26,702 nt of DNA from a virus. Below the pieces are notes generated by a model. It made no database searches. It had not been told where the DNA came from and saw only the letters and a list, made by a program, of their open reading frames with translations. The position numbers were made by a program, and so were the translations under genes. Position 1 is the first letter of the stretch, and every line of letters begins with the position of its first letter. Where the stretch lies: positions 1 to 26,702 of IMG/VR virus record IMGVR_UViG_3300048777_000035. One strand, 5' to 3'. Positions 3,474-16,456 of this stretch are shown here, piece after piece.

Positions 3474-3764
3474 GTGCCGATTCGAAGCGCGACACCAGAA
3501 CGTGCAAAACAAAAGGCCGAGTACAATCGCACTTGGCCGGAATGGATCAAAGGAAAGGCGTGTCGGAATTGTTGTGTACGTAACGCTCAAGAGGTTCACC
3601 ATTTTGCAGGCCGACGCGGGAGGTTGTTGCTTTATATTCCGCTATGGGTGCCGCTTTGCTCGTGTTGTCACCGATACATTACCGATCATCCAAAATACGC
3701 TCAATCCGAAGGACTGACTTGTCCTGATGGCCAATTGAACAATCAAAGTCTCGTACCGAAATAA
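3474..3764 (+). CDS. HNH-like zinc-binding protein, possible nuclease
   Basis: The recognisable part has CRNC (C30, C33 from the GTG start), then 'EVHHFAGRRGRLLLY', then 'PLCSCCHRYITDHPKYAQ'. Paired cysteines, an HH, a second CxxCH and a final H make an HNH/treble-clef layout as found in short phage HNH proteins. I chose the GTG at 3474 (96 residues). It abuts the previous stop, whereas the longer frame from ATG 3324 would overlap the SWIM gene by about 150 bases. The longer form cannot be excluded. HNH proteins cut DNA and are common in phage recombination and packaging modules. Here the neighbours are a SWIM protein and a PD-(D/E)XK nuclease. Confidence 0.55.
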   Translation: MPIRSATPERAKQKAEYNRTWPEWIKGKACRNCCVRNAQEVHHFAGRRGRLLLYIPLWVPLCSCCHRYITDHPKYAQSEGLTCPDGQLNNQSLVPK

Positions 3765-3770
3765 AAGCCT

Positions 3771-3956
3771 ATGCGAATGATAAAACACGTCCGTAAACCA
3801 TTCGTTGATCCCCTAAAAGGAATCAGCAAAGATCGCGTTCGATTGTCCAACGAGTCGAATGCAAAACGTGAAGCTAACCGCAAGTTTCCACGGGTTAAAA
3901 AATCCGCGTGGATGCAAGAATACGACCTTTCAACTGCGACTTATGAATCCGATTGA
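3771..3956 (+). CDS. Small basic unknown protein, 61 residues
   Basis: Starts MRMIKHVRKPFVDP and is strongly basic (many Lys and Arg), ending DLSTATYESD. It lies 6 bases after the HNH-like gene and overlaps the start of the nuclease gene by 14 bases. That position suggests a genuine coupled gene rather than a chance frame. No motif is recognisable. The basic charge would permit DNA binding. It may also be an unused frame, as the protein is short. Confidence 0.45.
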   Translation: MRMIKHVRKPFVDPLKGISKDRVRLSNESNAKREANRKFPRVKKSAWMQEYDLSTATYESD

Positions 3957-4413
3957 CCAGATTGCGGCCAAGCTTCCACTGTCCAAGGACACGCTGGCCA
4001 GGAATCCTCATTTGATTACCAGTGGAATTATCACTAGCGGACAAATAGCGAATGTGACGGCGGTTGAAGGAATACGCGTCAGACAATCAACGAAGCCCGT
4101 AATGAACAAATTGGAAACGGAATGGTTTCACATTTTGAACATCCAACACTTAATGTTTCCGAGACCACGACCGCAAGCCGTGACGTTCAAGCTTTGCAAC
4201 GGGATGCGCTACACTCCAGACGTATTCACGACCGCGTGGCCACAAGGAGACCAATATGGGATTCGCGCAACAGCGTGGGAAGTGAAGGGGCCAAAAGCTT
4301 TCGATGGATCATTGGATAAACTGAAAATGGCGGCGCATGAGTGGCCGGAGATTCTTTGGATTCTCGTGTGGAAAGAATCCGGTCGTTGGACACAGCAAAT
4401 AATTCTGCAATAA
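3943..4413 (+). CDS. PD-(D/E)XK resolvase-like nuclease (DUF1064-like)
   Basis: 156 residues from ATG 3943. Key residues follow the PD-(D/E)XK plan of the DUF1064 phage nuclease group: E58 in NKLETEW, D93 in 'YTPDVF', and E113/K115 in AWEVKGP, followed by 'DKLKMAAHEWPEILWILVW', the typical helix and strand after the active site. Members are thought to cut branched DNA or act as phage endonucleases, which would suit a replication and recombination module. The first 45 residues (ITSGIITSGQIANVTA) are less typical. The frame is open back to 3859, but the MNPIDQ start overlaps the previous stop in a coupled fashion and is preferred. It is the last gene before a 141-base gap, and may end the first operon. 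Confidence 0.65.
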   Translation: MNPIDQIAAKLPLSKDTLARNPHLITSGIITSGQIANVTAVEGIRVRQSTKPVMNKLETEWFHILNIQHLMFPRPRPQAVTFKLCNGMRYTPDVFTTAWPQGDQYGIRATAWEVKGPKAFDGSLDKLKMAAHEWPEILWILVWKESGRWTQQIILQ

Positions 4414-6541: not shown

Positions 6542-6938
6542 AACACAGACGCCGGAGCAGATTGATGCGCAACTGGATGCGGCCACAATCAGTCAAATAT
6601 CGTTCAAGCCAGGACCAGTGACAAACATATCTGTTGCAATCGTCAAACACATTTTGTCCGATCGAATCGTTTGGATGGATGACATTGAATTGCCTCAGGT
6701 TGATGCTGCCGACAAAAACGCTATCGGATTATCAATCCGTCGATTAGCCAATATTGGAATAATCACACGCATGGAAGGTATGAACGATCACCGACGCAGT
6801 AAAGTGAAAGCCCGGCGTGGCGGCCAAGTTTGGAAATATCGGTTGGCAAATCAGAAGCTTGCCGAGACATTTCTGAAGCGTAACAACTGCCACGTTTACC
6901 GTATGCCTGGAGAACTGGATTTAACTCCGAAACCATGA
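6531..6938 (+). CDS. Possible winged-helix DNA-binding protein
   Basis: 135 residues from ATG 6531. The central part, 'ISVAIVKHILSDRIVWMDDI' then AIGLSIRRLANIGIITRMEG and 'KARRGGQVWKYRLA' (about residues 28-105), has the pattern of a winged helix-turn-helix: helix, turn, recognition helix with 'LSIRRLANIGII', then a basic beta wing. This is a pattern judgement, not a named family. An upstream Met at 6501 would add ten residues lying over the previous gene and is less likely. The 3' end overlaps the SNF2 helicase start by ATGA. It could be a regulator, or a DNA-binding partner of the helicase. Confidence 0.5.
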   Translation: MKTETQTPEQIDAQLDAATISQISFKPGPVTNISVAIVKHILSDRIVWMDDIELPQVDAADKNAIGLSIRRLANIGIITRMEGMNDHRRSKVKARRGGQVWKYRLANQKLAETFLKRNNCHVYRMPGELDLTPKP

Positions 6939-9900
6939 CTACTACCGAAATAGAATCTCTCGTTCGTTGGACAAAACCTAAAGAGGTAAACACCCGGAAC
7001 GGGCCGCGCATTCTTCGCACGTACAAGCCGCGTGAGAATGATGATCCAATTTGGGAAGTCTGGGGTGAGCGCAAGAACGATTTGAAACCACTCGGCTTGT
7101 CTATGTCCAAAGACCCGTACACCGACGACTGGCGGCTGTGCTGGTGGCAGAAGCTTGCGCCAGAGATTATCCAGGAACGCAATGAACGAATTGAACTGAG
7201 CCGATCACTTGATGCCGACATCGAAATACCTTGTCCTGATGGTTGCGAGTTTCGTCCGTTTCAAAAAGCAGGAGTGAATTATATCTTGCGGGCATTCAAG
7301 AATAACGGTGTTTTACTTGGTGATGAAATGGGAACCGGAAAGTCTATTCAGGCCATCGGGGTAATAAATTCGATACCAGAAATTAGCAGGGTGTTACTGA
7401 TTTGCCCAATGACTTTGAAAGCCAATTGGGAACGTGAATTACGAAAATGGCTGATTCGGAAAATGAGCATCGGTCACGCGAATGCTAATTTCTTTCCGAA
7501 GACTGACATCGTAATTATCCATTATAACGTGGTGCATAAATTTCCGATAGCATCTACAAATTATTGGGACTTGCTTATCGTCGATGAATGTCATCGCGCA
7601 AAATCAGCGAAAGCACGCCAGACAAAAGCGATTGTCGGGTACAAACCAACTCGCAAAGAATCAGCGAAAGGAATGTTGCCGAGCAGCGGAATTCCGGCGG
7701 TTAGGAAGTTGTTCTTGAGCGGGACACCATTTGAGAATAAACCGGCCGAGCTTTGGCCAATCGTTAGCTACATCGCTCCGACATTATTTAGCAGCAAATC
7801 AGCTTTCGAGAAAAGGTACTGTGGCGCATGCTCAAACGGCTATGGATGGCAAGCCGATGGTGCAACAAATTCCGAAGAATTGGGAAGGGTGTTGCGCGGG
7901 ACATGTCTTATCCGCCGATTGAAATGTGACGTGCTTAGTGAGCTACCACCAAAACAACGGATTGTTGTTGAGATGGAAACGGAAGGACTTGAGCACGTCA
8001 TTAACCAGGAGCAACGCGCTTGGAAACAGAATCAACCTGAGCTTGAGGATGCCGAGGTGACACTTGAACTTGCAAAGGCAAGCGAAGATCAAGACGCATT
8101 TAAAAACGCTGTGTCGGCGCTGCGCAACAAGACAGCGTTGATATTTACGGAGATCGCTAAGGTGCGCCACGCCACGGCGCTTGCAAAGACACCAGCAATG
8201 ATTGAGATGCTAAAAGAGGAACTGGAAGAAGTATCCAAGATTGTGGTATTCGCGCATCACACGGATTGTCTGAGAATGGCTCATGCTTCCTTTCCAAATG
8301 AAAGTGTTTTGGTGACGGGGGACACGCCACAACTCGACCGTGATAAATTTGTTCAACAGTTTCAGAACGATCCAAGTTGCAGATTATTCTTCGGATCAAT
8401 TCGCGCGACAGGCGAAGGCATAACTTTAACGGCAAGTTCTAACGTCATATTTTTTGAAAACGATTGGACGGCCAGCAAAATGGCTCAGTGCTCGGATCGA
8501 TGTTTTGTCAAAAATACTCTTGTTTGGTGTCTTAACTCTGTTTATCATGGCAGCATGGCATTAACCACTATCCAGAACATCAAGATTGGCGACGTAGTTT
8601 TGACGCACTCCGGTAATTACCGAAAGGTCACAGACGCATGGAGTCACGAGCATCGGGGATGCATGACAAAAATTCATTACGTCGGATGGAACGATTCAAT
8701 TGAATGCACTCACGATCATAGGCTTATGGTAAAGCGCGGCGACAAAACGGAATGGATTGAGGCGCACAGCATATTGCCAACTGATTCAATGGCATTCCCA
8801 AAAATAAAAGCATGGTGCAGGCTTGAAAGTGTCACGTTCAAAAAAGAATGGAGAATGTATGATTCGCAATTGGTTCCGCGTTCAAAACAAAAGTGCCACT
8901 GTGGGAATCCTGTAGAGGGTCGTGGGCTGTGTCGAGTACATTATCGGGCATTGATAGAGTCTGGAAATCGTCCACCGAAACCGCGTCAGACCAGCCCGCA
9001 CTACGTCAGGCTTCCGGATGAAATAAAAATTGATGATGACTGGCTTTACTTGTTCGGGTGGTATGCTGCTGAAGGCTTCAGCTCAATGAAGCCGGGTAAG
9101 GGATATTTTGTATCGTTCAGTGGTCACGAAAAAGAGGAAAACGTGTTAATCCGAATATCTAAAAAGCTGCTTGCATTGGGTATCAAATCCACCATCTATA
9201 GGAAGGAAGGGGGCAAAGGAATTGAGATGCGCGCCTATTCTGGAGAGCTTGCTAAATGGTTCCAAGGCTGGTTTGGGATTGGTTCAGAAAACTTCTCTCT
9301 TCCATCGGAGATTATGAATCTCCCGCCTGACCAAGCCGCTATTTTTCTGCGCGGATACACGGACGGGGATGGGTATCAACGCAACCGGCAAGTGGAATGG
9401 GTAAGCTGTAGCCAGACACTTTGCTACCAAGCGTGCTTGCTGGCTATTCGCGCTGGTTTCATACCAACTATGCGGCGAGGTAGCGAAACAAGCGGATATC
9501 ACTGGATTGGTGGTTATACCAAATTTGGAAATCCTGCCAGCACGCGGCTGAACGATCAGGACGATGATTTTATTTACCGGCCAGTCCGTTCCGTAGAAAC
9601 CTATTGTGACAAAGTGCGGGTATATGACATCACGGTCGAAGGCGATGAATCTTTTACCACAGGATTTGCAACGGCGCACAACTGTCATCGGATCGGCCAA
9701 AAGGACAACGTAACGGTAAAATACTACATCCTGCCGGGAACGATTGACGCGCACATGATCCAGACTTGGATTCGCAAGGAAGAAATATTGGAGAAATCGT
9801 TGGACAGCGAACGCGCCGAGATAGAAGCGGAAGTCACGTTATTGCCCAAGACAGAGAAGCTGGCCACGCGCACGGAATTAGAGCGGGACGCGGTGACAAT

Positions 9901-10138
9901 GACGCGGGAGATGCGTCAGTCTATTCACGCTGCTCTACGGTCATTGGCGATGAATTGCGACGGTGCCAAGATGATCGACTCTCAAGGATTCAATAAATTT
10001 GACGCGAGGATTGGACAATCGTTAGCTGCGATGGAAAGCTTGACGCCTAAATGCGCTGCGCTTGGGAAAAAACTGTGTATCAAATATCAGCGCCAGCTAA
10101 ACCCGGAAACTCTCAAACAATGCGGAATCAATGAATGA
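6935..10138 (+). CDS. SNF2-family helicase interrupted by an intein
   Basis: 1067 residues as encoded; 673 after removal of the intein (residues 523-916). Superfamily-2 motifs occur in order: Q-like 'CEFRPFQKAGVNYIL', motif I LGDEMGTGKS (G133-S137), Ia 'LLICPMTLKANWERELRKW', II DECH (217-220), III SGTPFEN (262-268), IV 'KIVVFAHHTDC', V 'RATGEGITLTASSNVIFFE', and VI split as QCSDR/CHRIGQ around the insertion. Such proteins are ATP-driven DNA translocases. In phages they assist replication, recombination or repair. The first 100 residues are family-specific and unrecognised. The C-terminal part (about 930-1067) is helical and charged. Both ends are ATGA-coupled to neighbours. Splicing is needed for an intact motif VI, so activity should depend on it. 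Confidence 0.92.
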   Translation: MTTTEIESLVRWTKPKEVNTRNGPRILRTYKPRENDDPIWEVWGERKNDLKPLGLSMSKDPYTDDWRLCWWQKLAPEIIQERNERIELSRSLDADIEIPCPDGCEFRPFQKAGVNYILRAFKNNGVLLGDEMGTGKSIQAIGVINSIPEISRVLLICPMTLKANWERELRKWLIRKMSIGHANANFFPKTDIVIIHYNVVHKFPIASTNYWDLLIVDECHRAKSAKARQTKAIVGYKPTRKESAKGMLPSSGIPAVRKLFLSGTPFENKPAELWPIVSYIAPTLFSSKSAFEKRYCGACSNGYGWQADGATNSEELGRVLRGTCLIRRLKCDVLSELPPKQRIVVEMETEGLEHVINQEQRAWKQNQPELEDAEVTLELAKASEDQDAFKNAVSALRNKTALIFTEIAKVRHATALAKTPAMIEMLKEELEEVSKIVVFAHHTDCLRMAHASFPNESVLVTGDTPQLDRDKFVQQFQNDPSCRLFFGSIRATGEGITLTASSNVIFFENDWTASKMAQCSDRCFVKNTLVWCLNSVYHGSMALTTIQNIKIGDVVLTHSGNYRKVTDAWSHEHRGCMTKIHYVGWNDSIECTHDHRLMVKRGDKTEWIEAHSILPTDSMAFPKIKAWCRLESVTFKKEWRMYDSQLVPRSKQKCHCGNPVEGRGLCRVHYRALIESGNRPPKPRQTSPHYVRLPDEIKIDDDWLYLFGWYAAEGFSSMKPGKGYFVSFSGHEKEENVLIRISKKLLALGIKSTIYRKEGGKGIEMRAYSGELAKWFQGWFGIGSENFSLPSEIMNLPPDQAAIFLRGYTDGDGYQRNRQVEWVSCSQTLCYQACLLAIRAGFIPTMRRGSETSGYHWIGGYTKFGNPASTRLNDQDDDFIYRPVRSVETYCDKVRVYDITVEGDESFTTGFATAHNCHRIGQKDNVTVKYYILPGTIDAHMIQTWIRKEEILEKSLDSERAEIEAEVTLLPKTEKLATRTELERDAVTMTREMRQSIHAALRSLAMNCDGAKMIDSQGFNKFDARIGQSLAAMESLTPKCAALGKKLCIKYQRQLNPETLKQCGINE
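8501..9682 (+). mobile_element. Intein with LAGLIDADG homing endonuclease
   Basis: A 394-residue in-frame insertion (protein residues 523-916) starting with Cys (CFVKNTLVW) and ending in His-Asn, followed by extein Cys917. Splicing block B is ECTHDHRLMV (T592 to H595), block F is VYDITVEGDESF, and block G is FATAHN. The two dodecapeptide endonuclease motifs are LFGWYAAEG (706-714) and FLRGYTDGDG (804-813), both with acidic catalytic residues, so homing may still be active. Between the splicing half and the endonuclease lies a short Cys/His motif (C654, C656, C666, H669). The target is motif VI (DR/CHRIGQ), a highly conserved site typical for inteins. Confidence 0.93.
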
Positions 10139-11094: not shown

Positions 11095-11442
11095 ATGAGC
11101 AAAACAACCGAAAAAATTGAGGAGATCGCGGAGAAGTGGGCGGACAGATATATAAACACTGACAGAATGCAAATTACGGTGGCGATACATAGTGCCATTG
11201 CCGAGGCCACCGATCATCTGCAAGCCACAATCGAGTGCCATGAGCGGGGAGACGCCATGCTACTTGAACTGGTTGCTCCTTACAAAACCATTGCAGAGGG
11301 TATTAACGCGATTAAGTCCACCGCACCAACCTGGACTAAGGAACTGCCGAAGGAAGTGCACAAATGCACCCCAATCACAGAATACGCCACCCGCACAACG
11401 CCGGTAAAAATTAAATGCATCGAATGCGGGAGGGAATTATGA
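11095..11442 (+). CDS. Small protein with C-terminal Cys pair motif, paralogue B
   Basis: 115 residues. The N-terminus 'TEKIEEIAEKWADRYIN' and following 'AIHSAIAEATDHLQ' parallel the start of the preceding gene, so the two are probably paralogous in that part. The C-terminal end has KCTPITEY (C91) and IKCIECGREL (C109, C112), which may form a small zinc site. The middle is helical. The stop overlaps the helicase-methyltransferase start by ATGA. The function is unknown. Confidence 0.6.
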   Translation: MSKTTEKIEEIAEKWADRYINTDRMQITVAIHSAIAEATDHLQATIECHERGDAMLLELVAPYKTIAEGINAIKSTAPTWTKELPKEVHKCTPITEYATRTTPVKIKCIECGREL

Positions 11443-14168
11443 CCTACGACGAATTTATCCAGTCCAAAAAACCACTTGCTCAGCTTAACGGGTTCGTGCC
11501 AGCTACCCCGCCGCATCCGTGCCTTAAATCGCACCAGATCGACATTGCCATGTGGATGGCTCGCGGTGGGCGCCGGGCCTGCTTTGCCGCTTTCGGTCTT
11601 GGAAAGACACGAATTCACCTTCAGGTTGCAAAATGGATATGTGAACATGATCCTCGGAAGTACCTTATCATAGCCCCGCTTGGTGTACGCCAAGAATTTA
11701 CACGAATCCAGGGGCCGGCGATGGGTGTTGCCATGACTTATTGCCGAACCGATGCCGAGGTGGAAGCTTGCACAACGCAGATCATCATCACGAATTATGA
11801 GCGCGTGCGCGACGGCGGAATAAACGTCACGAAAGAAAAGTTCACCGGCATCGGGCTTGACGAGGCCAGCGTTTTACGCAGCTTCGGAAGTAAGACCTAT
11901 CAAAGTTTCCTGAAAATGTTCACGGCGATTGATTATCGTTTTGTGTTCACGGCAACGCCGTCACCGAACCGGCACAAGGAACTAATCCACTACGGAGGTT
12001 TTCTTGGAGTGATGGATACCGGCCAGGCGCTGACGCGATTCTTCCAACGGGACAGCCAGAAGGCTGGAAACCTGACTTTGATGCCGAGCATGGAAGGTGA
12101 GTTTTGGGACTGGCTGGCTTCATGGTCCTGCTTTCTGCAAAAGCCGTCAGACTTGGGATATTCCGATGACGGATACGACATGCCAGGGTTGCGCGTTCAT
12201 TGGGAGAGGGTACCTGTAGATCATAAAAAGGCATGGACGATGGTGGATAGCTGGGGGCAACATCAATTATTTTTGGACAAGTCGGCAGGATTGGCAGACT
12301 TAGCTGAGGTAAAGAGGTCAACCATCATTAGCCGAATCGCCAAAGCTAAGGAAATAATCGAAGCCAACCCAGGAGACAATTTCATTTTATGGCACGACAT
12401 AGAAGCCGAGCGCCGGGTGATTCAAAAAGTTATTCCGGGAGTGCAGGTAATTTATGGGACTCAAGATTTAGAGAAGCGCGAAGACATCATCGTAGACTTT
12501 TCAGACAACGGATTCCCTGTCCTTGGAACGAAGCCGCAACTCTCAGGCTCCGGGTGTAATCTCCAAAAGCATTGTCACCGCGCAATATTTTTAGGGAGTA
12601 GTTACAAGTTTAATGATTTCATTCAGGCCGTCCACCGGATTCTGCGTTTCCAACAGAAGTTCATAGTGGATATTTACATCATATTCACAGAGTCTGAAGA
12701 TGCGGTTGTATCATCACTCAAAACTAAGTGGCAACAGCACAACGAACTGGTTTCCAAAATGTCGGCGCTCCTTAAAGAATACAAACTTGACTTAAAAACT
12801 ATGCAAATCGTGAGAAAGACCGGATGCAAGCGCATCGAAGTAAAAAGCAAAACCTTCCGGGCGATCAATAATGATGCTATTGTTGAACTAATGAAGACTG
12901 TTGACTTTGGGCACAACATCACGCACAATTCCTGGCATGACAAAGGCTCAAATCATCTGGCACAACAATCACAATTTGATGAACAAGGCAATCCAATACC
13001 TGGAGAAAGCGGAAACTGGGAAGATAGCTGCGTCGATTTGATTGTGAGTTCAATTCCGTTCGGCACACAATATGAATATAGTCCGAACCACTCCGACTTG
13101 GGGAACAATATCGACAATCAGGCATTCTTTAGTCAATTGGATTATTTGATACCGAATCTACTGCGCGTTTTAAAGCCAGGCAGACTTGCTTGCATCCACG
13201 TCAAGGACCGCATCCGCTTCGGCGCCCAGCATGGGACGGGAGTGCCGACCGTGGACAGATTCAGCGACAAAACAGCCGACTGTTTTGAAAAACACGGATT
13301 TTTCTTTCTTGGACGGATCACGATTGACACGGACGTTGTGCGTGAGAACGCGCAAACATACCGGCTCGGCTGGTCAGAGAACGCGAAAGATTCGACTAAG
13401 ATGGGGGTCGGTATGCCCGAATACGTCCTACTATTCCGGAAGCCGCACAGCGACCTTTCCAATGCTTATGCAGACCTGCCGGTGACTAAGGACAAGAGCA
13501 TTTACAAGCGCGCACACTGGCAAGTAGATGCTTCGGGATTCTGGAAATCAGACGGAAACCGGCTGCCGGACCCGGACATAATCCAAGGAATGAACATGAG
13601 CGCCGTACGTCGGCTATGGCTTGATTATTGCCACAACCATCAATATTCATGGAAGGAACACGTTGAGATCGCCGCCGCGCTTGAGGATAATGGATATTTG
13701 CCATCAAGTTGGATGTTATTCTCTCCAATCTCAAATCACCCAGGTATCTGGGACGACATCACCAGGATGCGGACGTTGAATTCGAATCAGGAAAAGCAAA
13801 AAGAGGACAAGCATGTGTGCCCGCTGCAGCTCGATATTGTCAATCGTCTCATTACCAGGTATTCAAACCCAGGTGAAATAGTGTTTGATCCGTTCGCTGG
13901 AATATTTACAGTGCCGTATTGCGCGCAGCTACTCGGCCGCATCGGATGGGGAGTGGAACTGGCAACCGAATATTGGCGCTGCGGCGTCGGGTACTGCGAG
14001 CAGGCTGAACGTGAGCGGAACATGCCGACGTTATTCGACATGGCCCCAGCGATTGCGCCAGATCCGATATTGCCACCGGTTAAATTAACGAAAGTTGAGA
14101 AAAACAAAATTAAGTCATCAATCATCTCAAAAGTATCCAGCGACTTAAGCGAATTTAACGAAGAATGA
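11439..14168 (+). CDS. Fused helicase and DNA methyltransferase
   Basis: 909 residues from ATG 11439, preceded by GGGAGGG, a good ribosome site. The first half is a superfamily-2 helicase: AFGLGKT (Walker A-like, 51-57), LIIAPLGVRQEF (Ia), LDEAS (140-144, in place of DEAH), FTATPSPN (170-177), 'NFILWHDIEAERRVI', and 'FNDFIQAVHRILRFQQ' (motif VI). The second half (about 495-880) is an amino-methyltransferase in beta order: the catalytic motif IV region is 'DLIVSSIPFGTQYEYS' (S537-F541), and motif I comes late as FDPFAGIFT (about 816-824) before 'GRIGWGVEL'. Such enzymes methylate adenine N6 or cytosine N4, and the helicase half may translocate on DNA as in Type I or III systems. No restriction nuclease is attached, so protection or regulation of phage DNA is likelier than restriction. 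Confidence 0.8.
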   Translation: MTYDEFIQSKKPLAQLNGFVPATPPHPCLKSHQIDIAMWMARGGRRACFAAFGLGKTRIHLQVAKWICEHDPRKYLIIAPLGVRQEFTRIQGPAMGVAMTYCRTDAEVEACTTQIIITNYERVRDGGINVTKEKFTGIGLDEASVLRSFGSKTYQSFLKMFTAIDYRFVFTATPSPNRHKELIHYGGFLGVMDTGQALTRFFQRDSQKAGNLTLMPSMEGEFWDWLASWSCFLQKPSDLGYSDDGYDMPGLRVHWERVPVDHKKAWTMVDSWGQHQLFLDKSAGLADLAEVKRSTIISRIAKAKEIIEANPGDNFILWHDIEAERRVIQKVIPGVQVIYGTQDLEKREDIIVDFSDNGFPVLGTKPQLSGSGCNLQKHCHRAIFLGSSYKFNDFIQAVHRILRFQQKFIVDIYIIFTESEDAVVSSLKTKWQQHNELVSKMSALLKEYKLDLKTMQIVRKTGCKRIEVKSKTFRAINNDAIVELMKTVDFGHNITHNSWHDKGSNHLAQQSQFDEQGNPIPGESGNWEDSCVDLIVSSIPFGTQYEYSPNHSDLGNNIDNQAFFSQLDYLIPNLLRVLKPGRLACIHVKDRIRFGAQHGTGVPTVDRFSDKTADCFEKHGFFFLGRITIDTDVVRENAQTYRLGWSENAKDSTKMGVGMPEYVLLFRKPHSDLSNAYADLPVTKDKSIYKRAHWQVDASGFWKSDGNRLPDPDIIQGMNMSAVRRLWLDYCHNHQYSWKEHVEIAAALEDNGYLPSSWMLFSPISNHPGIWDDITRMRTLNSNQEKQKEDKHVCPLQLDIVNRLITRYSNPGEIVFDPFAGIFTVPYCAQLLGRIGWGVELATEYWRCGVGYCEQAERERNMPTLFDMAPAIAPDPILPPVKLTKVEKNKIKSSIISKVSSDLSEFNEE

Positions 14169-14458: not shown

Positions 14459-15198
14459 TCACCACGAAAGAAACCAACCAGTTCACGAAGCTTGATGCGA
14501 TAATCGTCGCCGGTGCGAAGACATTCATGGAGGTTGGGGATGCTTTAATGAAAGTGCGTGATGCAAAACTCTACCGCGCTAAATTCGCAACGTTTGAGGA
14601 ATATACCGAGTCTCGCGGGGTGAGTATACGCCAAGCATACCGGTACATGGCGGCAGCGGAAACGGCCAAGGAATTAAAAAATGTGACAAACGTGTCACAC
14701 GACTCCGACCCTATAAACATTGAAGTAATTGAAGGTGCTTCCGAAAACGCACTAAATGAGCTGGCAAAAACGGATCCTGAAAAACGCGCAAAAGTGGCGG
14801 CTAAAGCAGCCAAAAATAACGGAGGAAAACTGACGGCCAAAGCCATCAAAGAAGCCGCCGCCGAACTCGATCACAAGGCAAAGCCAATCGTTGATGTCGA
14901 GCCTGTGAAAAAGGAACTTCCCGCGCCATCGGACAACTACGAAGGCCAGCCAGACATCCCGGACCATTACGAAGCGTCAGTGACTCCGCCAGCGCCAGCA
15001 GAGACCGAAAAGCCCATGACGCCGGGACTGTTTGAAACGACAATCCAACTCATGGAGGCGCGAATTCCAGCCGAGTTGAAAGACCGTTTGAAATACGTCT
15101 CTGTGCTTCAGCGTGCCACGGTGCGCCAGATGAAGTACGGCAAACCGGCTGAAGGGATTCTTTCAAACCTCGACGCCTACACCAGCAAGGCGGCATGA
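14437..15198 (+). CDS. ParB-like phage DNA-binding protein
   Basis: 253 residues. After MTNTIETLTTKETNQFTKL come a helical segment 'FMEVGDALMKVRDAKLYRAK' and 'FATFEEYTESRGVSIRQAYR' (about 50-69), then YMAAAETAKEL. This 'tFEeY...rgvs.r.AYR...aA' block is the helix-turn-helix typical of phage ParB/KorB-like proteins found near DNA methyltransferase genes. A second helical zone (about 100-150, 'LAKTDPEKRAKVAAKAAKNN') is followed by a Pro/Glu-rich linker and a C-terminal helical part. It may bind phage sites and regulate or guide modification. AAAGG lies 5 bases before the ATG. It is flanked by the direct repeat, so recombination could delete it. Confidence 0.6.
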   Translation: MTNTIETLTTKETNQFTKLDAIIVAGAKTFMEVGDALMKVRDAKLYRAKFATFEEYTESRGVSIRQAYRYMAAAETAKELKNVTNVSHDSDPINIEVIEGASENALNELAKTDPEKRAKVAAKAAKNNGGKLTAKAIKEAAAELDHKAKPIVDVEPVKKELPAPSDNYEGQPDIPDHYEASVTPPAPAETEKPMTPGLFETTIQLMEARIPAELKDRLKYVSVLQRATVRQMKYGKPAEGILSNLDAYTSKAA

Positions 15199-15344
15199 AT
15201 GAGTTGGCTTTATTCGCGGGCAATGGTGGCGGCATTCTTGGAGGAAAACTCCTTGGATGGAGAACAGTGCCGATTGGTGAAGCGACACCAAGCCTCCGTT
15301 CTTCATCGCAGTTGAACAGCCAACCGGCAGACCTGAGAGTTTAA
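15195..15344 (+). pseudogene. Truncated DNA methyltransferase start fused to repeat copy 2
   Basis: ATGA overlap with the ParB-like gene opens MNELALFAGNGGGILGGK and LLGWRTV, which matches the first 25 residues of a C5 cytosine methyltransferase (motif I, FAGxGGG). At 15268 it runs into the second copy of the direct repeat, so the next 24 residues (PIGEATPSL to PADLRV) are the repeated leader read in frame, then stop. The catalytic part is absent. It differs at DNA level from the complete methyltransferase at 15650, so it is the remnant of another gene rather than a simple duplication. Confidence 0.7.
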
Positions 15345-15372
15345 GGCAATATGACAAATACAATCGAAACAC
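15268..15372 (+). repeat. Direct repeat, copy 2 (recombined)
   Basis: 105 bases identical to 14353-14458 apart from one deleted A. Its left edge cuts the methyltransferase start after GWRTV. Its right edge, after the seven ParB-like codons MTNTIET, joins sequence leading into the endonuclease VII-like gene. Both edges are abrupt, which marks a recombination product. The duplicated start continues out of phase as a 59-codon frame (15351-15530) that shadows the nuclease gene. Confidence 0.95.
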
Positions 15373-15388: not shown

Positions 15389-15640
15389 ATGGAAAAGGCA
15401 AATGGAAAATGTATGGCTTGCGGGACACCATTCTCCACTGGAAGATTTAGGAGAAACTGCGACCATTGCCACTCGACAAAAAAAGTGCGCGGATTTGTAT
15501 GCACCAGATGTAATTCCGTGCTTGGACTAATTAACGACGATGAAACAATCCTCGCCATGCTCCAAAAATACATCACCGAATCCAGAACCATTGAACTGCA
15601 CAATGGAGGAACTGCAAAAATACATATCGTTATTAAATGA
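15389..15640 (+). CDS. Endonuclease VII-like recombination nuclease
   Basis: 83 residues. The order CMACGTPF (C8, C11), NCDHCHSTKKVRGFVCTRCN (about 28-47) and SVLGLINDDETILAML is that of the phage T4 endonuclease VII family, which cuts branched DNA and mismatches using a zinc-bound HNH-like site with the DHCH motif. The domain usually has more sequence before the first CxxC. Here the frame is open upstream (AAIFLMEKANGKC) to about the edge of the repeat, so the N-terminus may have been lost by the recombination. The start ATG 15389 is the first available. It lies 9 bases before the C5 methyltransferase. Confidence 0.75.
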   Translation: MEKANGKCMACGTPFSTGRFRRNCDHCHSTKKVRGFVCTRCNSVLGLINDDETILAMLQKYITESRTIELHNGGTAKIHIVIK

Positions 15641-15649
15641 AGGATATTT

Positions 15650-16456
15650 ATGCAAAAACTTAGAACCTTGCATCTCTTCGCTGGAGCGGGAGGAGGGATA
15701 CTTGGCGACATCCTGCTTGGACACCAACCAATCTGCGCCGTTGAGATTGACCCCTATTGCCAGCAAGTCTTACACGCTCGGCAGAAAGACGGTTTGCTTC
15801 CATGGTTTCCCATTTTTGCGGATGTCAAAGAGTTCGATGGAAAACCTTGGAGAGGAAAAGTTGATGTCATATGCGGAGGATTTCCATGCCAGGATATTAG
15901 CATCGCCGCAAACTCAGGTGGAGGAGGTGTCGGAATTACAGGGGAGCGATCAGGGTTGTGGAGTGAAATGGGGAGAATCATTTGCGAAGTTGGACCAAGA
16001 TACGTTCTTGTGGAAAACTCACCAATGCTTACTAGCAGGGGGCTTGGAACCGTTCTGCGAGACCTGGCCCGAATGGGGTATGATGCAGAATGGGGAATGT
16101 TTTGCGCGACCGATACCGGCTTGGATCACCAGCGGAAAAGGATTTTCATATATGCCCACCATTACAAAGACTCAAATAATCGAGCCGTTGGAACCTCAAA
16201 CGAAAATCAACAGCAAAGGGCGAATAAGAAAAATCGCAAAGACTGGAACAGAAGGTTCGATAAGCTGGGCGCTTTGGGTGTTACTGCACGGGCTCAATCC
16301 TATGCCGAAGGCCGCCGAATATTTTATGGGGTGGCCAATGGAATGGACCGCATTGCAGCCATTGGGAATGGACAAGTTCCAGATGTGGTATCGCTCGCAT
16401 GGAAAACTTTAGCCAACTATGAGCATTCACACCATCGCCGCCGAGATCACCCGTAG
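15650..16456 (+). CDS. DNA cytosine-C5 methyltransferase
   Basis: 268 residues, complete. Motif I LFAGAGGG (9-16), motif IV GGFPCQDIS with catalytic C80, motif VI VLVENS (119-124; the usual ENV is ENS here), motif VIII-like GLDHQRKRIF (157-166), and motif X IGNGQVP (238-244). The segment between VIII and X (about 170-230), where target recognition sits, is short and basic. Length fits small phage enzymes. It transfers methyl from S-adenosylmethionine to C5 of cytosine, probably protecting phage DNA from host restriction. AAGGAT lies 6 bases before the ATG. The gene shares its DNA with a +1-frame ORF along most of its length, and its end overlaps the next gene by 38 bases. Confidence 0.9.
   Translation: MQKLRTLHLFAGAGGGILGDILLGHQPICAVEIDPYCQQVLHARQKDGLLPWFPIFADVKEFDGKPWRGKVDVICGGFPCQDISIAANSGGGGVGITGERSGLWSEMGRIICEVGPRYVLVENSPMLTSRGLGTVLRDLARMGYDAEWGMFCATDTGLDHQRKRIFIYAHHYKDSNNRAVGTSNENQQQRANKKNRKDWNRRFDKLGALGVTARAQSYAEGRRIFYGVANGMDRIAAIGNGQVPDVVSLAWKTLANYEHSHHRRRDHP
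15864..16412 (+). CDS. Long +1-frame ORF embedded in the C5 methyltransferase gene
   Basis: This frame has no stop from 15540 to 16412 (290 codons). The part from ATG 15864 (182 residues) looks protein-like: MSYAEDFHARILASPQ, CGVKWGESFAKLDQDTFLWK, CETWPEWGMMQNGECF and FMGWPMEWTALQPLGMDKFQ. It is rich in Trp. I recall database proteins with the same 'WKT...ETWP.WG.M.NGEC....MGWP.GWT.L.PL..DKF' pattern, some annotated as methyltransferase-associated, so it may be a real overlapping family. Equally the resemblance may arise because conserved methyltransferase DNA always translates this way. No recognised domain gives a function. Confidence 0.4.
   Translation: MSYAEDFHARILASPQTQVEEVSELQGSDQGCGVKWGESFAKLDQDTFLWKTHQCLLAGGLEPFCETWPEWGMMQNGECFARPIPAWITSGKGFSYMPTITKTQIIEPLEPQTKINSKGRIRKIAKTGTEGSISWALWVLLHGLNPMPKAAEYFMGWPMEWTALQPLGMDKFQMWYRSHGKL

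Follow-up and report, generated by a model that had tools for sequence, protein, structure and literature searches.

Two overlapping reading frames of a phage C5-cytosine methyltransferase locus probably encode two subunits of one enzyme

The window, which is the whole stretch of DNA analyzed here (26,702 nucleotides), is a 26.7-kb virus contig in which tailed-phage terminase, portal, and S49 protease genes are present. An earlier note on this DNA described two long reading frames sharing the same DNA, and both are there: an open reading frame (ORF) of 290 aa at 15540-16412 is in the +1 frame relative to one of 268 aa at 15650-16456. We refer to the chain encoded by the latter as alpha and to that encoded by the former as beta. 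The +1 frame of alpha is open from 15531 to 16409, stops are abundant in the third frame, and the sequence contains the patterns quoted in the note for the +1 product (WKT, ETWPEWG, MQNGECF, MGWPMEW, and DKF). The features of the locus are as follows.

15531-16412, + strand: entire open +1 frame, including its stop (16410-16412); its first ATG is at 15540
15640-15644, + strand: AAGGA, probable alpha ribosome-binding site judged from the sequence, 5 nt before ATG 15650
15650-16456, + strand: alpha, C5-cytosine methyltransferase chain, 268 aa, motifs I-VIII and X
15677-16150, + strand: span of alpha motifs I-VIII (motif names by eye)
15677-15697, + strand: alpha motif I
15691-15696, + strand: AGGAGG, probable beta ribosome-binding site, written by the glycine-rich motif I of alpha
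15702-16412, + strand: beta, probable coding sequence from the candidate start TTG 15702, 236 aa
15702-16007, + strand: beta N-terminal arm, over alpha motifs I-VI; low-confidence in the model
15875-15892, + strand: alpha motif IV
16008-16079, + strand: beta conserved segment LWKTHQ...ETWPEWG
16013-16021, + strand: alpha motif VI
16127-16150, + strand: alpha motif VIII
16149-16295, + strand: single putative target-recognition module of beta, with a degenerate head, YMPT (by eye against the modules of relatives)
16151-16363, + strand: alpha bridge joining motif VIII to motif X, modelled for the most part with low confidence; relatives conserve the beta frame there
16296-16346, + strand: beta motif IX-like element NPMPKAAEYFMGWPMEW, so called from its position in fused single chains
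16347-16409, + strand: beta C-terminal tail (TALQPLGMDKFQMW...), written over alpha motif X
16364-16381, + strand: alpha motif X (GNGQVP)

Among the 135 relatives, 112 have an ATG in the beta frame no more than three codons from the alpha start, the usual context being NTGNATGAGTTGG, with the alpha ATG, GTG, or TTG 4 nt upstream (among the 45 of 140 matches listed); in 15 of the remaining 23, an ATG of the beta frame occurs at alpha codon 43-50. The window beta lacks the start common to most relatives. ATG 15540 sits within an upstream endonuclease VII-like gene (15389-15640) and probably is not the beta start; the best candidate from the sequence appears to be TTG 15702, which has AGGAGG 5 nt upstream and is common to one relative (L012). 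Adjacent starts driving two frames have been measured in Escherichia coli for AUGUG and GUGUG (according to an excerpt of PMC9841429), and initiation in two frames from neighboring starts may be analogous here.

The endonuclease VII-like gene (PF02945, 8.8e-14) is located ahead of the intact alpha. Immediately upstream of this nuclease gene, positions 15195-15350 hold a remnant of the 5′ end of a second methyltransferase gene with the shared start context (ATGAATGAGTTGGC), which has the appearance of a gene end displaced to the side of the nuclease gene. Elsewhere in the window, an SNF2-type helicase gene (6935-10138) carries an intein splicing domain and a LAGLIDADG domain, and a single ORF at 11415-14168 joins an SNF2-related domain to an N6/N4 DNA methylase domain.

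Alpha matches PF00145 in Pfam (1.2e-32), the match ending at profile position 182 of 324, and phrog_363 in PHROGs (1.5e-60). The earlier note had placed all of the catalytic motifs in one frame, and motifs I, IV (PCQ), VI (EN), VIII, and X are indeed found in the 268-aa frame; neither a target-recognition domain nor motif IX was recognized there by alignment with M.HhaI, by the PF00145 profile, or in the structure model. The sequence alignment with M.HhaI covers M.HhaI residues 12-170 only. The alpha model (pTM 0.77) is mostly of high confidence up to motif VIII, with lower values at 81-100; blocks 181-230, in the stretch between motifs VIII and X, score 40-49 (low confidence), and high confidence is regained at 241-260 around motif X. 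Its best matches among solved structures are M.HhaI entries (the first has Z 23.1, rmsd 3.5, and 218 aligned, and the five after it tie), and alpha is modelled as a C5 methyltransferase catalytic domain.

The openness and protein-likeness of the +1 frame could be a shadow of methyltransferase DNA, due merely to the conserved protein of alpha and its codon bias, which is one of two explanations offered in the earlier note, the other being an overprinted gene. At the window locus by itself the openness is modest, as a shadow would have it, with one +1 stop versus 4.8 expected over the whole gene under synonymous shuffling of alpha (P about 0.012), and the suggestion that such openness has a chance of one in a million overstates what a single locus can tell. 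The case for the +1 frame becomes decisive through stop depletion across the family, not through the window locus by itself. Relatives were fetched via beta and, separately, via alpha (at least 545 and at least 599, respectively, with 80 of each kept), with the alpha searches using a profile built from nested members; most of the loci are metagenomic contigs, and all of the evidence on alpha and beta is computational. Stops were counted only in alphas complete over the profile, giving 185 ORFs and, after reduction at 90% identity, 135. These contain 57 stops in the +1 frame over the tested stretch, compared to 724.9 expected from synonymous shuffling, and 108 of them have none at all, compared to 0.42 expected; the frequent +1 stops in close relatives that the note had named as evidence against an overprinted gene are thus not seen. 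The 52 alphas represented by alpha-fetched loci behave in the same way (40 without a +1 stop versus 0.21 expected; 32 stops versus 279.6 expected). The third frame of the 135 alphas is not depleted (2199 stops versus 1924.7 expected), and 351 other ORFs with homologues, taken from the same loci as controls, fit the null, having 3766 +1 stops versus 3835.5 expected, with none being stop-free. Over the whole aligned stretch, +1 stops fall within the first 40 or the last 20 codons, except at alpha codon 105 of L015, which alone among the 135 relatives has a mid-gene +1 stop.

The same question was asked in reverse, of the alpha frame given the beta protein between motifs VIII and IX, using only distinct loci with landmarks found by regular expression (36 of 80 viral loci and 38 of 80 bacterial-contig loci). 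The alpha frame is open in all 36 viral loci, where 0.75 is expected (no stops seen versus 137.7 expected), and in 37 of the 38 bacterial-contig loci, where 2.98 is expected (one stop, in L264, versus 99.7 expected). The alpha frame is therefore kept open given beta, which argues against a shadow.

Substitution positions were compared in 24 independent pairs with distinct alpha sequences, whose stretches from motif VIII to motif X aligned over at least 25 codons with no less than 70% identity. From the start to motif VIII, the rates at alpha codon positions 1, 2, and 3 are.089,.041, and.199; between motifs VIII and X they are.300,.141, and.147; and from motif X to the end they are.099,.067, and.236. 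The peak is at the alpha third position in 24/24 pairs in the first stretch and in 22/24 in the last, and between motifs VIII and X it falls instead on the third codon position of beta (23/24 pairs). Because the substitution peaks change frame, conservation is stronger in alpha at first, in beta next, and in alpha again at the end, the conserved frame thus switching twice along the gene; of all the evidence that the two frames are retained, these positions are the most direct. The earlier note had also proposed a comparison of synonymous variation, and change at alpha third positions is indeed reduced, but only modestly. In the start-to-VIII stretch, over four bins with 21 pairs for alpha and 73 for controls (the lowest bin holding a single alpha pair), the third/first position ratio is 1.9-2.5 for alpha versus 2.2-3.7 for controls of similar identity, the third/second position ratio is 3.2-6.3 versus 3.3-7.2, and in the most similar bin the absolute third-position rate is.164 versus.169.

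In pairwise comparison, the +1 products are more similar (mean z 2.9-3.9) than expected under a null in which the alpha protein is retained and no further +1 stop is introduced. The third frame also exceeds the same null keeping the alpha protein (mean z 1.4-2.2), so shared ancestry explains part of the +1 similarity signal, and this extra similarity is a second point in favor of a shadow; with a plain null, the values are 4.1-7.2 for the +1 product versus 1.6-4.5 for the third frame. Stop counts, substitution pattern, reverse test, +1 similarity, and controls nonetheless lead us to reject the shadow, which we regard as very improbable, as does the occurrence of beta homologues as separate genes and in fusions (see below). 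The +1 frame is very probably a real gene, and of the two explanations it is the overprinted gene that stop depletion, substitution pattern, reverse test, and calibrated controls support.

The window +1 product matches phrog_1008, labelled 'DNA methyltransferase' (7.4e-13, residues 84-212), two short PHROGs of unknown function match its C-terminus, and neither Pfam (E up to 1) nor NCBIfam gave a match to it. We considered a hidden HNH endonuclease in beta and rejected it, as there is no HNH match in Pfam (E up to 1) or PHROGs. Predicted alone, beta is modelled poorly (mean pLDDT 56.7, pTM 0.24), with no PDB match at Z of 2 or more among eight chains compared and no Foldseek match at E 0.001; two hits of a beta profile to PDB sequences (E 0.32 and 0.68) were taken as chance. 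Motif IX and a recognition role in beta thus rest on position, fusion, and evolution.

Betas carry between 1 and 10 modules headed PTP or similar, between WKT...ETWPEWG and MGWP, and similar modules sit at different positions in different betas. A loose regular expression finds 427 modules in 191 betas with a median of 38 aa, counts that are approximate because the expression also takes WKTP heads and because single linkage chains one group of 217; the window beta has one degenerate module by eye. The PTP modules most likely are target-recognition modules, and we refer to them as putative. In relatives of the fused and split kinds, the MGWP element follows the putative recognition modules and precedes motif X, and its position, fusion, and evolution suggest that it may correspond to motif IX. 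Pfam searches with the IX-X ends of four split relatives gave one match, below its cut-off, and the canonical spelling of motif IX was not found by regular expression in single-chain ORFs among the fetched loci.

Of the beta ORFs at viral and phage loci, 200/204 overlap alpha exactly in the +1 frame (some contigs being counted twice). On bacterial contigs, the titles of which include Acinetobacter, Pseudomonas, Burkholderia, and Patescibacteria, 73/83 beta ORFs do so and nine further ones show, besides other frames, a +1 overlap with a piece of alpha; the one in L274 does not. In L215, L233, and L264, beta is whole and alpha is in two pieces. DNA resembling the nested pair of Salmonella phage S9-5 is present in 4 of 5426 complete E. 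coli genomes (NZ_CP090448.1, NZ_CP101866.1, NZ_CM129871.1, and NZ_AP045802.1), where it is annotated as DNA cytosine methyltransferase.

Other relatives are split. In L013, L238, and L253, alpha ends early and motif X is carried by the beta ORF. In Arthrobacter phage DrYang, gp77 has motifs I-VIII and gp78 overlaps it by 71 nt in the +1 frame; beyond the overlap gp78 continues by itself, and there it bears modules with PTP heads, the element LNPAFVEWMMG, and also motif X. By tblastn, gp78 matches 571 phage records. In Gordonia phage Float294, gp62 and gp61 share 14 nt. PHROGs family phrog_116 is matched at 205-402 by the window alpha and at 409-489 by DrYang gp78, end to end. The beta ORF of L172 also carries motif X, but we rejected it as a split form, its long beta ORF being due to an insertion with an out-of-frame HNH gene: a third-frame ORF (3678-4028) between the IX-like element and motif X matches PHROGs of HNH endonucleases (best 1.1e-9; Pfam HNH, 0.0085, is below the cut-off), so that alpha, beta, and a nuclease occupy the three frames of one locus. 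In L097 (2994-3814), the frames are exchanged in the VIII-X stretch, by either a natural shift or a sequencing error.

In yet other phages there is one fused chain; beta in actinophages is found either as its own gene or joined in frame to alpha. Mycobacterium phage Philonius gp55 matches phrog_363 at residues 1-219 and phrog_1008 at 391-549, Gordonia phage Leonard gp5 matches the same families at residues 1-204 and 300-517, and over the first 185 codons of these two genes the +1 frame contains four stops. Because these single chains match the alpha and beta families, beta corresponds to the missing half of the methyltransferase; beta homologues, separate or fused, thus exist, whereas the earlier note had held that a lack of stand-alone ones would speak against the gene. 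Two long single methyltransferase ORFs, in Streptomyces phage Darolandstone (gp38; L286, 1486-3180) and Paenibacillus polymyxa plasmid pAP1 (L288, 1209-2699), have no PTP modules in frame but five and three PTP matches, respectively, in +1, and may be intermediate between the fused and the nested arrangement.

Rather than a foreign protein, the central portion of the +1 product most likely represents the part that the methyltransferase itself lacks, which the earlier note had overlooked, and the two frames would therefore be two subunits of one enzyme. We consider it highly likely that 15650-16456 encodes two separately translated subunits in two frames that form an active C5 methyltransferase heterodimer acting on phage DNA. 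The alpha frame would provide the catalytic domain (motifs I-VIII), a weakly structured bridge, and then motif X, and the beta core would provide a target-recognition module and the motif IX-like element, with the beta N-terminal arm and C-terminal tail written over alpha motifs. Alpha and beta would be translated separately from one mRNA and assemble into the heterodimer, and methylation of phage DNA would presumably protect it against host restriction.

The fused single chains are compatible with a programmed +1 frameshift after motif VIII that yields one fused chain instead of two starts, and in L013, L238, and L253, where the beta ORF has motif X, such a shift would give a complete enzyme. 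In the nested forms, however, motif X is in the alpha frame and a shifted chain would lack it, and a late shift needs neither an open +1 frame nor the beta-frame ATG near the alpha start that most relatives have; we therefore regard a frameshift as unlikely. It is less likely still that beta is truly overprinted but has another role, such as that of a regulator or an anti-restriction factor. Its N-terminal arm has no Pfam or NCBIfam family match, as such a role might suggest, but alpha has no recognizable recognition domain or motif IX, and the beta family is fused to the alpha family in single chains. We thus favor two separately translated subunits.

At the level of the family, chance falls far short of accounting for the openness of the two frames, conservation passes from alpha to beta and back to alpha, and single chains of other phages join the two protein families. 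With rather less assurance than for the heterodimer, we think it probable that this is a widespread, mostly unrecognized phage family with motifs I-VIII in frame 0, exchangeable modules and motif IX in +1, and motif X in frame 0 again, its halves being mutually overprinted and its specificity changing through swapped modules that are open in both frames.

We found no description of a nested C5 methyltransferase subunit in phages in the open-licence PMC literature. PHROGs lists phrog_363 (alpha) and phrog_1008 (beta) as separate families, both labelled 'DNA methyltransferase', and the labels are silent on their being two frames of one locus. Deposited records conflict over which frame is the gene: in 17 phage records, the annotated frame is alpha only in 12, beta only in four (SOVA965, phPA-G, McKinley gp4, and Vibrio phage 1.291.O), and both in one (DrYang); in phage BUCT711 it is alpha, by coordinates. 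Cloning alpha alone may yield an inactive enzyme or cause its specificity to be missed. The family offers hundreds of natural cases of two conserved frames sharing DNA, and since fused, split, and nested relatives suggest a route, it opens the question of how nested genes arise to testing. It would also be a natural two-part methyltransferase with exchangeable targets, provided that the modules serve as recognition domains.

The ShiLan domain, as an excerpt of PMC11855218 describes it, is a hidden HNH endonuclease read out of frame in a phage methylase, a mobile insertion of about 200 aa. In the window, too, a phage DNA methylase gene contains a further protein in another frame, but unlike the ShiLan domain of that excerpt, the window beta matches no HNH family and extends over almost all of the gene; it is the third-frame HNH-like ORF of L172 that resembles the ShiLan insertion.

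M.AquI, according to an excerpt of PMC3404938, has two chains split between motifs VIII and IX, with IX-X in the small chain. On that description, L013, L238, L253, and DrYang gp77/gp78 are M.AquI-like, their second ORF having the IX-like element and motif X, whereas in the window motif X is in alpha and beta is nested throughout. Like Philonius gp55 and Leonard gp5, the window covers the phrog_363 and phrog_1008 families, but those two proteins are encoded in one frame as one chain.

Lee et al. reportedly found in 1995 that the gene for the small chain of M.EcoHK31I lies within that for the large chain, in a different frame. M.EcoHK31I is part of a restriction-modification system (as stated in an excerpt of PMC6456624); in its large chain are motifs I-VIII and X and the predicted recognition domain, and its small chain has only motif IX (in the excerpt of PMC3404938). 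The window likewise has two chains, the large one with motifs I-VIII and X, and by analogy its enzyme probably works like M.EcoHK31I. Unlike the M.EcoHK31I of that excerpt, where the recognition domain is in the large chain, the window locus has a VIII-X stretch conserved in the frame of the small chain, and because the putative recognition region is conserved in that frame, the window enzyme would not be a plain member of the M.EcoHK31I type.
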